From Chloroflexota bacterium (GTDB lineage: Bacteria; Chloroflexota; Dormibacteria; Dormibacterales; Dormibacteraceae), in NCBI GenBank assembly GCA_005881335.1, contig VBFV01000036.1, positions 1 to 38,908 on the forward strand: a stretch of 38,908 nt of DNA, given 5' to 3'. A program made the position numbers and the translations under genes. A model generated the notes under the pieces. It had not been told where the DNA came from, searched no databases, and worked only from the letters and a program-made list of their open reading frames with translations. Each line of letters opens with the position of its first letter. Position 1 is the first letter of the stretch. This document shows positions 14,985 to 21,029 of the stretch, one piece after another.

Positions 14985-15581
14985 TCATGGGGCGAGGCGT
15001 TCGATGCGCCAGGCGTCGCCGGAGCGGCGAACGTAGCGCAGCCGGTCGTGCAGGCGGTCCTCCCGGTTCTCCCAGAACTCGATCCAGGTTGGCTGCAGCG
15101 CGTAGCCGCCCCAGCCCTTGGGCAGCGGCACCTCATCCGGATACTTCTCCGCCAGCTCGAGCACGCGGCGCTCGAGGACTTCGCGCGAGCGAATCACCTT
15201 GCTTTGCGGCGATGCCAGTGCCGAAAGCTGTGCGCCACGCGGCCGGCCGGCGAAATACGCGAGGGATGCCGCGTGTCCGACCTTTCGCACCGGACCGTAG
15301 ACACGGACCTGGTGCCGCGTGACCGCCCAGTAGAAGACGAGCGCCGCACGCCGGTCATGCGACAGGTCGCGGCCTTTACGGCTGGCGTAGTTGGAATAAA
15401 AGAGGAAGGTGCCATCGAGGATGCCCTTGAAGAGAACCATCCGCGCCGACGGGCCTTCTTCGCCGGTCGTGGCGAGTGTCATCGCTTCGGGCTGCAAGGC
15501 GCCGGCCTGGGTGGCTTCGCGAAACCAGCGGTCGAAAAGCAGTATTGGATCGCGCGGTGCCTCCGCTTCGAGCAGCGGCAT
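14985..15581 (-). CDS. pdxH: Pyridoxamine 5'-phosphate oxidase
   Basis: 198 aa; EAMTLATTGEEGPSARMVLFKGILDGTFLFYSNYASRKGRDL...WGGYALQPTWIEFWENREDRLHDRLRY. Confidence 0.94.
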   Translation of the reverse strand: MPLLEAEAPRDPILLFDRWFREATQAGALQPEAMTLATTGEEGPSARMVLFKGILDGTFLFYSNYASRKGRDLSHDRRAALVFYWAVTRHQVRVYGPVRKVGHAASLAYFAGRPRGAQLSALASPQSKVIRSREVLERRVLELAEKYPDEVPLPKGWGGYALQPTWIEFWENREDRLHDRLRYVRRSGDAWRIERLAP

Positions 15582-16363
15582 CAGTCAGCGCTTTCTTGCG
15601 GCACGTATTTGCGCAGCTGCTCGAGCGCAGCGCGCTGCAGCCGCGACACGTGCATCTGGCTGATGCCGAGCCGGCGCGCGATCTCCGACTGCGACATCTG
15701 CTCGTAAAACCTCATCGCCATGATCGCTCGCTCACGCGGGGTCAGGTGCTCCATGGCGCGATCGAGCACGTCGCGCATCTCCACCCGCTCCAGCTCCGGG
15801 TCCGCGCCGCCGATCTGCTCGGCCACCGATCGATTGTCCTGGCCGTCGCCGGACGAGATCGGCTGGTCGAGCGAGACGGGCACGTAGGCGGGGCCCATCT
15901 CCATCGCTTCCGTGACGTCATCGGGCGTGACGCCGAGGCGCTCGGCGAGCTCGCTCACGGTCGGCTCGCGACCCAGCTCGTTCTTCATCTGCTCGTTGAC
16001 GCGGACCACCGACTGGTGCAGCTCTTGCAGCCGGCGCGGGAAGCGGATCGCGGTTCCCTTGTCGCGAAAGTAGCGCTTGATCTCTCCCGCCACTGTGAGC
16101 GTCGCGAAGGTTGTGAACTCGTAACCGAGGTCGGGGTCGAATCGCTCGATCGCTTTGATCAGGCCGAGATAGCCGACCTGGACGATGTCATCGAGCGGCT
16201 CGCCGCGGTTCTGAAACTTGCGAGCCAGGAAGTAGACGAAATCGTGATATGCGTCGACCAGCCGCGCGCGGATGCGGTCGCGCTCGGCCGGGTCATTGCT
16301 TTCCTTGTAGCGGCGATGGAGCGCCCGCAGCTCCTCGCGGGGAATCCGCGTCGATGAGGCCAA
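15581..16363 (-). CDS. SigB/SigF/SigG-family RNA polymerase sigma factor
   Basis: 260 aa; DDIVQVGYLGLIKAIERFDPDLGYEFTTFATLTVAGEIKRYFRDKGTAIRFPRRLQEL...LTPRERAIMAMRFYEQMSQSEIARRLGISQMHVSRLQRAALEQLR. Confidence 0.92.
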   Translation of the reverse strand: MASSTRIPREELRALHRRYKESNDPAERDRIRARLVDAYHDFVYFLARKFQNRGEPLDDIVQVGYLGLIKAIERFDPDLGYEFTTFATLTVAGEIKRYFRDKGTAIRFPRRLQELHQSVVRVNEQMKNELGREPTVSELAERLGVTPDDVTEAMEMGPAYVPVSLDQPISSGDGQDNRSVAEQIGGADPELERVEMRDVLDRAMEHLTPRERAIMAMRFYEQMSQSEIARRLGISQMHVSRLQRAALEQLRKYVPQESAD

Positions 16364-16391
16364 TACCGATTAAGTGTCCGCCGGTCGGGGA

Positions 16392-16811
16392 TCAGCCTGC
16401 CAGGTGCTTGACCATGCGGAAGCTCACGTGACCCGTCAGCGGCTCGATCGACGGCCGGAAGTCGTCGACGAAGCAGCGGATCATCTCGTAGGCGAGCCGC
16501 TGCAGCTCAGGGTCAATGTGCGTCTCGTGCCTGGGCAGCGGCAGCGCGGCACCCGTCGGCATGAGGTCGACGTCGACGACGAGCGCCCTGTTGGTGGCGA
16601 AGTAGGTCAGCTTCAGGTCGGCCGGAGTGCCGAGGTCGTCGGCCGCGGCGATTGCGCTGTCACATGCCTGCGTGAGCGCAATCGCCAGCTCGTCCAGGTC
16701 CATCAGGCTCAGGCCGAGCTGGCCGCCCAACGTGGTGGCCACGCGTTTGGCCACCGGGATGAAGGCGGAAGCCGCGGGAATCTTGAGCTCCGCCAGGTTG
16801 CGCTTGGCCAT
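16392..16811 (-). CDS. RsbW-like anti-sigma regulatory factor (HATPase fold, divergent)
   Basis: 139 aa; LGLSLMDLDELAIALTQACDSAIAAADD in the N-box position; C-terminal PELQRLAYEMIRCFVDDF. Directly upstream of the sigma gene. Confidence 0.6.
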   Translation of the reverse strand: MAKRNLAELKIPAASAFIPVAKRVATTLGGQLGLSLMDLDELAIALTQACDSAIAAADDLGTPADLKLTYFATNRALVVDVDLMPTGAALPLPRHETHIDPELQRLAYEMIRCFVDDFRPSIEPLTGHVSFRMVKHLAG

Positions 16812-17535: not shown

Positions 17536-17826
17536 CTAGTTGCTGGGCTTTGGTTCGGTCGGTTCGCGGTTGGGTCGCGGCACGAATCGGGCGAGCGGCT
17601 GCAGGAGCAGCGCGAAGGGCAGGGCCGGCAGCACGTTGGCCTGGCCGAGGCGAATCGACGGCAGCCCGAGGAAGTCCCAAAGCTGGCCCAGGCCGAAGCC
17701 GAGCACCGTCATCAGGAGGATGGGGATGTACGCGCGCCGGCGGTAAGGAAGGAAGGCGTAGCAGAGCTGGGAGACGATCAGCACGAGCAGCACGGCCACG
17801 ATCAGGCCGGGTGGGATGAGCTTCAC
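17536..17826 (-). CDS. Small polytopic membrane protein, unknown function
   Basis: 96 aa; MKLIPPGLIVAVLLVLIVSQLCYAFLPYRRRAYIPILLMTVLGFGLGQLWDFLGLP..., several hydrophobic segments. Confidence 0.6.
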   Translation of the reverse strand: MKLIPPGLIVAVLLVLIVSQLCYAFLPYRRRAYIPILLMTVLGFGLGQLWDFLGLPSIRLGQANVLPALPFALLLQPLARFVPRPNREPTEPKPSN

Positions 17827-17835
17827 AGCCGGCCG

Positions 17836-18012
17836 AAAGGTGCTCCCGCCGGGTTACGAGGGTGGGTTGTCCTGAGCATGCTCAGGTGGGTCCCCTGCCT
17901 CGGCTCTCCAAGTCCCGTCCAAGCGGGCGTTTGGTCGACCTTGCGGACTCCGGGGTCCCGATGATGAACTGTTGGGCAACGCGCACGTCACCCGCAGCCC
18001 ATTGGGAGCGCC
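17836..18012 (-). ncRNA. ssrS: Candidate 6S-like RNA
   Basis: Manual fold of the minus strand: closing stem GGCGCUCCC/GGGAGCACC (8 of 9) plus CGGGUGACG/CGUAACCCG (8 of 9) plus GUUG/CAAC; central bubble whose 3' side holds CCUGAG-CAUG-CUCAGG (17886..17871); apical stem GGGACCCC/GGGGACCC (7 of 8), AGUCC/GGACU, tip hairpin CCAAACGCCCGCUUGG. TAGTAT at 18021..18016 fits a -10 element. Confidence 0.6.
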
Positions 18013-18018
18013 TCAATA

Positions 18019-19776
18019 CTACGAAACAGGTTTCTTGGGCGGGACGACTTGAATGTGAAGCTCTTCGAGCTGCCTGGGGTCCACCTGGCTCGGCGCGCCC
18101 AGCATCAGGTCCTGGTGGCTCTGGGTCTTCGGAAATGCGACCACGTCCCGGATGTTCTCGGTGTCGGTGACCGCCATCATCAGCCGGTCGATGCCGGCCG
18201 CGATTCCACCGTGCGGCGGCACGCCGTACTCGAACGCGTCGAGCAGGTGTCCGAACTGGGATTGAATCCTCTCCCGGCTCATGCCGAGGATCTCGAAGAC
18301 TCGTTCCTGCAGCCCGCGGTCGTGGATGCGGATGCTCCCACCCGACACCTCGAACCCGTTGGCCACGCAGTCGTACGCACGGGCCCTCACTTCATACGGG
18401 CGCTCGCCCAACAGGTCCATGTCCTCGGGCCACGGCGACGTGAACGGATGATGACCGTAGGTCAGGTTGCCCTGGTCATCCTCTTCGAACAGGTACATGG
18501 GATAGATCCACGCGAACTTCCATTCCCCGTGGCGGACGAGCTTTCGGCGCCGCGCGATCTCCCGCCGCAACAGGCCCATCACGGTCTCCGCTTTTCGGCG
18601 ACGGTCGGCGACCAGGAGCACGATGTCGTCGGCTCCCGCGCGGACGGCTGCGCGGATGGCGGACATCTCACCTTCGCTGATGTGGCGGTCCAGCGGGCCC
18701 GGAATCCAGGCCAGCCCCTTCGCGCCTGCCCCTTTGGCCAGCAGGGCGAGCTCGTCGAGCTCGCGGCGGCTCATGTCCTTTCCGCCAGGGACGGCCAGAC
18801 ATCGCACGACGCCGCCCGCGTCGAGCGCGGAGCGAAAAACGGTCGCGCCTGACCCTCGCAGCGCGTCGCTGACGTCCGCGATCTCGAGCTCGTACCGCAG
18901 GTCTGGCTTGTCGGTCCCGTACCTCAGGAGCGATTCCTGCATGTCGATGCGTTGGAACGGCGTCGGGATCTCGATCCCCAACACGTCTTTCCAGACGGTC
19001 GCCCACAAACCTTCGATCAGCGCGAACACGTCCTCTTCGGTGCAGAAGGACATCTCGACGTCAAGCTGCGTTATCTCCACCACGCGGTCCGCCCGAAGGT
19101 CTTCATCGCGCAGGCAGCGCGCGATCTGGTAGTAGCGCCCGATCCCGGCGACCATCAACAACTGCTTCAGCTGCTGCGGCGACTGTGGCAGGGCAAAGAA
19201 TTCGCCGGGGTGAAGGCGCGAGGGAACGATGAAGTCACGCGAACCCTCGGGCGTGCCCTTGAGCAGCATCGGCGTCTCGACTTCCATGAACTCGTGCGCA
19301 TCCATGTAGCGGTGAATCGCCTGCACCACGCGATGTCGGAGCTCGAGGTTTTGAGTCATCTTCGGCCGCCGGATGTCGAGGTAGCGGTACTTCAGCCGGA
19401 GTGCCTCGTCGGCCTCGACGTCGTCCTCGATCGCGAACGGCGGCGTCTTGGCGACCGAGATCACCTCGAGGTCCGATGCGGCGACCTCCACCTCGCCTGT
19501 GGGCATGCGTGGGTTTTCTGCGCCGGGCCGGCGCCGCGCAACCTTGCCCTCGACCCGGACCACGAACTCCGAGCGCAGGTCCGACGCCGTCGTGTGCGCC
19601 TGCGGCGCGTGGGCGGGGTTGAACACCACCTGGACCGTGCCCCAGCGGTCGCGGAGGTCGATGAAGATCAGACCGCCATGGTCGCGACGCCGCGCCACCC
19701 ATCCGTACAGCTCGAGCTCGCGACCTTCGTCGGAGGCGCGCAGCGAGCCGCAGTGCGGGGCGGAAAAGCCGCTCAT
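18019..19776 (-). CDS. aspS: Aspartate--tRNA ligase
   Basis: MSGFSAPHCGSLRASDEGRELELYGWVARRRDHGGLIFIDLRDRWGTVQVVFNP..., SPQQLKQLLMVAGIGRYYQIARCLRDEDLRADR, GGIAAGIDRLMM. Start moved from 19803 to 19776. Confidence 0.96.
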   Translation of the reverse strand: MSGFSAPHCGSLRASDEGRELELYGWVARRRDHGGLIFIDLRDRWGTVQVVFNPAHAPQAHTTASDLRSEFVVRVEGKVARRRPGAENPRMPTGEVEVAASDLEVISVAKTPPFAIEDDVEADEALRLKYRYLDIRRPKMTQNLELRHRVVQAIHRYMDAHEFMEVETPMLLKGTPEGSRDFIVPSRLHPGEFFALPQSPQQLKQLLMVAGIGRYYQIARCLRDEDLRADRVVEITQLDVEMSFCTEEDVFALIEGLWATVWKDVLGIEIPTPFQRIDMQESLLRYGTDKPDLRYELEIADVSDALRGSGATVFRSALDAGGVVRCLAVPGGKDMSRRELDELALLAKGAGAKGLAWIPGPLDRHISEGEMSAIRAAVRAGADDIVLLVADRRRKAETVMGLLRREIARRRKLVRHGEWKFAWIYPMYLFEEDDQGNLTYGHHPFTSPWPEDMDLLGERPYEVRARAYDCVANGFEVSGGSIRIHDRGLQERVFEILGMSRERIQSQFGHLLDAFEYGVPPHGGIAAGIDRLMMAVTDTENIRDVVAFPKTQSHQDLMLGAPSQVDPRQLEELHIQVVPPKKPVS

Positions 19777-21029
19777 GCGAGACGGGTCGGCAACTCTACC
19801 CATGCCAGGTCAGTCTGCTCGCCGCTCGACATGTCGCGCAGCCTGGCGGTCCTCCGCGCCGCGTCTTCCGGCGTGAGCAGCACGACCAACTTCGCGCCGA
19901 GCTTGTTCGCCGAGCGCATCTTCGCCGTCAGGCTCTTCGGCTCGTAGTCGACCGCCGTCGAACGCACCGAGCGGCAGATGCGCGCGACCTCGGCGGCTTC
20001 GACCGCGAGGTCTCCGTCAGGCAGCACCAGCACGTCGGCCGCGGGGCTGATCGCAACTTCCTCGCCCTTCGCCGCCATCAGCTCGGTGACGCGATCCAGG
20101 CCGCCCGCGAACCCGACGCCTGGCGTCGGGGGCCAGCCCTCCGCCTCCGCCAGGCCGTCGTAGCGGCCGCCAGAAGCCAGCGCGTCCTGCTGCCCGGTCG
20201 CGCCACCCGGATAGAACTCGAACACCGTCCGCGTGTAGTAGTCGAGGCCGCGCACCAGGTAAGGGTTGTGCTGATATCCGATGCCGGCGGCCTCGAGGAG
20301 CCGCCGCACCGCCGCCCAGTGTGCGGCGCACTCGTCACACAGGTGGTCGGTGATTCGAGGCGCGTCGGCCTTGAACGGCTGGCACTGCGGCACCTTGCAG
20401 TCGAGCAGGCGCAGAGGATTCCGCTCGAGGCGGAGCTGGCAATCGCCGTGGAGCTGGGATTTCAAAGGACGGTAGTAAGCCTTCAGGCGCTCGAGGTAGG
20501 CCGGCCGGCACTTGCCGTCGCCGATGCTGTTGAGCTCCAGGCGCAGGTCCTGGAGACCGACCTGGTGCAGCCACTCGCTTGCCAGCTCGATCACCTCTGC
20601 GTCCAGCCCCGCCGCCGCGCTGCCGATCGCTTCCACGTTGAACTGGAAGAACTGCCGGTACCGGCCCTTTTGTGGCCGGTCATACCGAAACATCGGACCG
20701 AACAAATAAAGACGCGAGGGCTGCGGACCCTGGTTGAGGCCGCCTTCGAAGTAAGCGCGTACCACTCCCGCGGTCGCCTCCGGTCGCAAGGCCAGGTTTC
20801 GCCCTCCGCGGTCGTCGAAACGATAAAGCTCTTTGGCCACCGCATCGGTGTCCTCTCCCACGCGCTCGATCAGCTCGGCGTGCTCGAGGATCGGAGTGAT
20901 GATCTCCTCGTAGCCGAACCGGCGCCCGACCTCCGCCGCCCCTTGTTGCGCCGCCCTCCACAGCGGCATCTCGGCCGGAAGGATGTCGCGCACGCCGCGG
21001 ACGGCTTTGATCGGTTCGGTACGGGCCAT
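19773..21029 (-). CDS. hisS: Histidine--tRNA ligase
   Basis: MARTEPIKAVRGVRDILPAEMPLWRAAQQ..., LRPEATAGVVRAY, MFRYDRPQKGRYRQFFQFNVEAIGS, VRGLDYYTRTVFE. Start moved from 21095 to 21029. Confidence 0.96.
   Translation of the reverse strand: MARTEPIKAVRGVRDILPAEMPLWRAAQQGAAEVGRRFGYEEIITPILEHAELIERVGEDTDAVAKELYRFDDRGGRNLALRPEATAGVVRAYFEGGLNQGPQPSRLYLFGPMFRYDRPQKGRYRQFFQFNVEAIGSAAAGLDAEVIELASEWLHQVGLQDLRLELNSIGDGKCRPAYLERLKAYYRPLKSQLHGDCQLRLERNPLRLLDCKVPQCQPFKADAPRITDHLCDECAAHWAAVRRLLEAAGIGYQHNPYLVRGLDYYTRTVFEFYPGGATGQQDALASGGRYDGLAEAEGWPPTPGVGFAGGLDRVTELMAAKGEEVAISPAADVLVLPDGDLAVEAAEVARICRSVRSTAVDYEPKSLTAKMRSANKLGAKLVVLLTPEDAARRTARLRDMSSGEQTDLAWVELPTRLA

Follow-up and report, generated by a model that had tools for sequence, protein, structure and literature searches.

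A probable divergent 6S RNA gene directly behind aspS in the Dormibacteria

The gap behind aspS on the minus strand of the analysed DNA (the window: 38,908 nucleotides of contig VBFV01000036.1, from a Chloroflexota bacterium of the class Dormibacteria) very probably encodes a bacterial 6S RNA. Its reading as a divergent 6S/SsrS RNA follows from a -10 element, a covarying rod, homology with the Rfam 6S family in both directions, and a position behind aspS as in Bacillus. 6S RNA is a well-known small RNA that mimics an open promoter and thereby sequesters RNA polymerase; it acts as a global transcription regulator in slow growth. The Dormibacteria are mostly uncultured soil bacteria, and a search of the literature (a limited collection) gave no paper that names 6S RNA together with Dormibacter. 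An earlier note had proposed a 6S RNA at this place from the letters of the window; the proposal is supported by the top Infernal match, by strong covariation and by aspS-6S synteny in two further families of the class.

The gap of about 190 nt had been described as non-coding, and no convincing gene was found within it (Table 1); the window holds no tRNA or tmRNA. The predicted transcript is probably about 175 nt long, starting at about 18012-18008 and ending at about 17836, a length inside the 160-200 nt typical of 6S/SsrS. The neighbourhood comprises hisS, aspS, the 6S gene, small ORFs, a DUF948 gene, an RsbW-like gene and a SigB/F/G gene. The SigB/SigF/SigG-type sigma factor gene (TIGR02980, 271 bits) and the gene of the RsbW-like anti-sigma protein (a weak match) lie together at 15581-16811 of the minus strand, 1-2 kb downstream of the 6S gene.

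Table 1 Features of the predicted 6S RNA locus (window coordinates; A1, alignment of 29 homologues; R1, covariance model built from the window's own family).
Feature	Position	Strand	Evidence or remark
Minus-strand gap	17827-18018	-	between aspS (18019-19803) and the 96-aa ORF (17536-17826)
aspS, upstream neighbour	18019..19803	-	TIGR00459, 680.9 bits
96-aa ORF, GTG start, 3' of the gap	17536-17826	-	small, membrane-protein-like
Predicted 6S RNA gene, first to last base of closing stem	17842..18009	-	RF00013 match 17836-18014; R1 match 17835-18015; covariation
Predicted -10 promoter hexamer TAGTAT, over the aspS stop codon	18016..18021	-	GTANNAT invariant, 32/32 family members
Closing stem, outer 5' strand GCUCCC	18004..18009	-	A1 columns 8-13 with 231-236; 5/5 counted pairs change on both sides
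Closing stem, outer 3' strand GGGAGC	17842..17847	-	pairs with 18004-18009
Closing stem, inner 5' strand GCGGG	17991..17995	-	A1 helix 3; both-side changes in 3/5 pairs
Closing stem, inner 3' strand	17856..17860	-	pairs with 17991-17995
Bubble-flanking helix, 5' strand UUGCCC	17974..17979	-	Rfam 6S alignment; within the proposed pRNA template
Bubble-flanking helix, 3' strand GGACAA	17867..17872	-	pairs with UUGCCC, one C/A mismatch
Central bubble, 5' strand	17960..17973	-	unpaired in consensus and Rfam alignment
3' bubble hairpin CCUGAG-CAUG-CUCAGG	17871..17886	-	A1 helix 10; 96.6% of cells paired; 2 pairs change on both sides
Apical arm	17888..17959	-	A1 helices 5-9; 8 pairs change on both sides
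Apical arm pairings GGGACCCC/GGGGACCC, GUC/GGC, CCAA/UUGG, CCCG/CGGG; loop CUUGGA	17888..17959	-	
Proposed pRNA 5'-GUUGGGCAACGCGC	17971..17984	+	first template base C17971; inferred

At gathering cut-offs, Rfam has no match anywhere in the window. In a permissive scan of 451 bases against 4227 Rfam families, RF00013 (6S) was the best match (26.3 bits, E 0.0016), aligned over its full length (model positions 1-187) to 17836-18014 of the minus strand; as 6S had been named before the scan, the single-model E-value is about 4e-7 (0.0016 / 4227). The Infernal search thus ranks the proposed family first and over its full length, but places the window copy 20 bits under the gathering cut-off of 46.4 bits, which is a curation threshold and not a biological feature. 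RF00013 matches the same place in 13 of 20 relatives' loci, with the best score (46.3 bits) in a Candidatus Dormiibacter relative. The genome-wide search of the window's own genome with RF00013 returned nothing, even at E 1-10, which is probably a loss in the search's initial pass, given the 26-bit match seen locally. Reciprocal search and synteny stand in here for this cut-off.

The window's family belongs to the class Dormibacteria, which takes in Candidatus Dormiibacter; by aspS matches, the window's genome groups with metagenome-assembled genomes labelled Chloroflexi and with Candidatus Dormiibacter. Of 61 relatives, 36 have the DNA of the gap, and every one of the 36 belongs to this family. 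A covariance model built from this family only (R1) finds the RNA in 38 of the 42 family members searched (37 full copies and one damaged copy), directly behind aspS in every family locus with the aspS end in view. In the damaged copy (locus L033, genome G008) runs of G and C interrupt the sequence after GGGACCCCGGAG; this may reflect a genuine lesion or an error of assembly.

Single-sequence folding of the window RNA, one of the checks proposed in the earlier note, was unremarkable (-75.2 kcal/mol, z -1.54, with 16 of 200 shuffles equally good), and its minimum-energy fold places the 5' third in a local hairpin, not quite a 6S rod. Such folding is weak evidence, so the case for 6S rests on comparison. 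The consensus fold of A1 comprises 39 pairs, with a closing stem in three blocks, a central bubble, a hairpin on the 3' side of the bubble and an interrupted apical arm; the 6S-like shape that had been folded by eye therefore holds in the 29-sequence consensus, but not in the single-sequence fold. Compensatory changes on both sides were found in 20 of the 39 pairs (9.6 in shuffles, at most 11 when the partner strand was slid), and 96.5% of cells were paired, versus 88.6% with the 3' letters shuffled and at most 52.5% with the partner slid. No shuffle reached the observed covariation score; covariation downstream of aspS in the relatives is strong and far above both controls, and it supports the rod expected of 6S (closing stem, large bubble, interrupted apical arm). 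The bubble-flanking helix falls outside the covariation test because its letters are invariant in the 29 sequences. A mini-helix proposed by alifold (A1 columns 35-43) was left out, as its invariant letters probably match only by chance.

In six of the loci examined (L014, L017, L020, L021, L024, L026) the apical loop contains a palindrome of about 40 nt, GACCCCACGAAATCTTCGATTTCGTGGGGACC. Searches with its core gave between a few and a dozen further occurrences in most genomes searched, and the reversed control gave none; the palindrome is a dispersed repeat that these 6S RNAs tolerate. Several relatives (L003, L014, L016, L017) have repeated palindromes, of the type TAGTCNNGACTA, immediately behind the 6S gene.

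The earlier note had pointed to a -10-like TAGTAT over the aspS stop. The overlap is real, and the hexamer (18021-18016) is one instance of GTANNAT, which is invariant in the family. GTANNAT is also the aspS stop codon in most members; in seven it is separate from the stop, sitting from 5 nt before to 99 nt after it, and is still kept, so that the stop codon does not explain its conservation. Copies in two further families of the class are also preceded by similar hexamers (TANNNT). No recognisable -35 consensus was found upstream of the 6S gene, no terminator-type stem at its 3' end, and no site in a promoter and terminator pattern scan. One locus (L015) has a partial tandem copy of the 5' part of the 6S gene about 100 nt upstream of the full gene, with TAGTAT before the partial copy and TAGAAT before the full one.

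Flanked by co-oriented genes and lacking a clear terminator, the RNA might also be a cis-acting element: the terminal part of the aspS mRNA, or an attenuator or leader acting on the downstream small-ORF and DUF948 genes. This is hardly credible here: the RNA has a conserved -10 element of its own, remains intact where the downstream DNA turns to repeats (L002, L003, L016, L027), persists behind hisS where aspS is absent, and lacks the terminator-type stem at its end.

The aspS-6S synteny extends to those two further families (f2 and f4). R1, built without them, recovers all 20 f2/f4 loci, and in f4 the places reported by RF00013 are those found by R1. Fourteen of these loci lie directly behind aspS, five behind hisS with aspS absent from the locus, and one near a contig end, so that aspS or hisS is directly upstream in 19 of the 20; a sigma factor gene matching the window's SigB/SigF/SigG-type gene follows the 6S gene in 20/20. 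The order hisS-aspS-6S-...-SigB/F/G is therefore common to the window's family and two further families. The f4 and f2 sequences, each set folded on its own, adopt this same rod (z -11.6 and -10.2, respectively, versus column shuffles). In a third family (f3, loci L123-L131) no 6S RNA was found behind aspS, nor genome-wide in the nine genomes searched; hisS-aspS is kept there, but a different gene follows aspS, and the 6S RNA may have been lost, moved or diverged. Against a 6S RNA stand this family, the score of the window copy under the Rfam cut-off, its absence from the genome-wide RF00013 search, the unremarkable single fold, and the missing -35 element and terminator.

Across the class, RF00013 at E up to 0.1 reported 30 of 110 genomes, none over the gathering cut-off; among 151 genomes sampled elsewhere in the phylum, 28 had a match above it. 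Several of these Rfam-accepted 6S genes were recovered by R1 at full length and at the same coordinates, and on loci passing RF00013 its E-values were 1.2e-5 (L116) and 1.4e-4 to 9e-4 (L118-L122). RF00013 finds the window RNA and R1 finds accepted 6S RNAs, and thus each finds the other. Over the whole phylum sample R1 matched the window's family only, although it did match known 6S loci when these were targeted. One Rfam-accepted 6S gene in another family of the phylum (L109) adjoins a close aspS.

We infer that the Dormibacteria RNA is expressed, binds sigma-A RNA polymerase and supports pRNA synthesis. RNA polymerase with the housekeeping sigma factor would make the RNA from a start near 18009, and the rod would imitate an open promoter and occupy the housekeeping holoenzyme, chiefly while growth is slow. 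Once nucleotides are available again, the polymerase would use the 5' strand of the bubble as template for a short pRNA, the synthesis of which would open the UUGCCC/GGACAA helix and free GG17871-17872; these would then complete the 3' bubble hairpin, leading to release of the enzyme. The pRNA start was placed by projecting the E. coli start onto the window through the Rfam alignment, which sets the first template base. The 5' bubble side bears the nearly invariant GUGCGCGUUGCCCAACA. Two alternative partners are available to GG17871-17872, namely CC17974-17975 of the bubble-flanking helix and CC17885-17886 of the 3' hairpin, and the letters of both pairings are invariant or nearly so, which would fit a switch during pRNA synthesis.

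A relative of 6S RNA that binds core polymerase without sigma and has no pRNA cycle, like the actinobacterial Ms1, would have a similar rod. Ms1 and 6S are related in structure (PMC9130861), and neither shape nor position by itself identifies the partner as Ms1-like or 6S-like. We nevertheless regard an Ms1-like RNA as very improbable: RF00013 is the best match and no other family scores above chance (among families with an Rfam model, which Ms1 may lack); the neighbours are aspS and hisS, and the HAD hydrolase gene typical of Ms1 is not among them; and the predicted pRNA template, where conservation along the 5' strand is highest, is similar to the B. subtilis 6S-1 template.

The order 6S, small genes, RsbW-like gene and SigB/F/G gene, conserved in three families of the class, might form one co-regulated stress locus, in which read-through from the terminator-less 6S gene feeds the sigma genes. 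We consider this unlikely; if true, both ways of removing polymerase from the housekeeping sigma factor would be linked at one locus. The 6S family is nearly universal and the Dormibacteria copies are ordinary in kind. They lie under the Rfam cut-off throughout the class, and pipelines based on it would therefore report 6S as missing. The Dormibacteria alignment could mend the RF00013 model, and the loci are targets to look for in soil metatranscriptomes.

Compared with RF00013 6S/SsrS RNAs in general, the window RNA has the same full-length alignment, rod, central bubble, length and conserved GGGA...ACCCACCUG at the apical side of the bubble, whereas the Dormibacteria copies are divergent, G+C-rich and all under the gathering cut-off, which the 6S RNAs of other families in the phylum pass. 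Ms1 of Actinobacteria has a 6S-like rod as well and binds RNA polymerase (PMC9130861), but has another gene neighbourhood and binds the core enzyme rather than the holoenzyme. A parallel in position is found in B. subtilis, where bsrA (6S-1) is flanked 5' by aspS and 3' by yrvM (PMC11077062), which confirms the nearness to aspS pointed out in the earlier note: both RNAs lie directly downstream of aspS, and the 3' flank differs, being a small membrane-protein-like ORF in the window. The shared aspS-6S position would fit old common ancestry. In B. subtilis 6S-1 the small hairpin in the 3' bubble strand is already present in the free RNA, before pRNA synthesis (PMC8876501), and a hairpin is predicted there in the window RNA. 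The predicted pRNA resembles the B. subtilis 6S-1 pRNA, 5'-GUUCGGUCAAAACUA (PMC12005410), in that both start with GUU, although the sequences differ.
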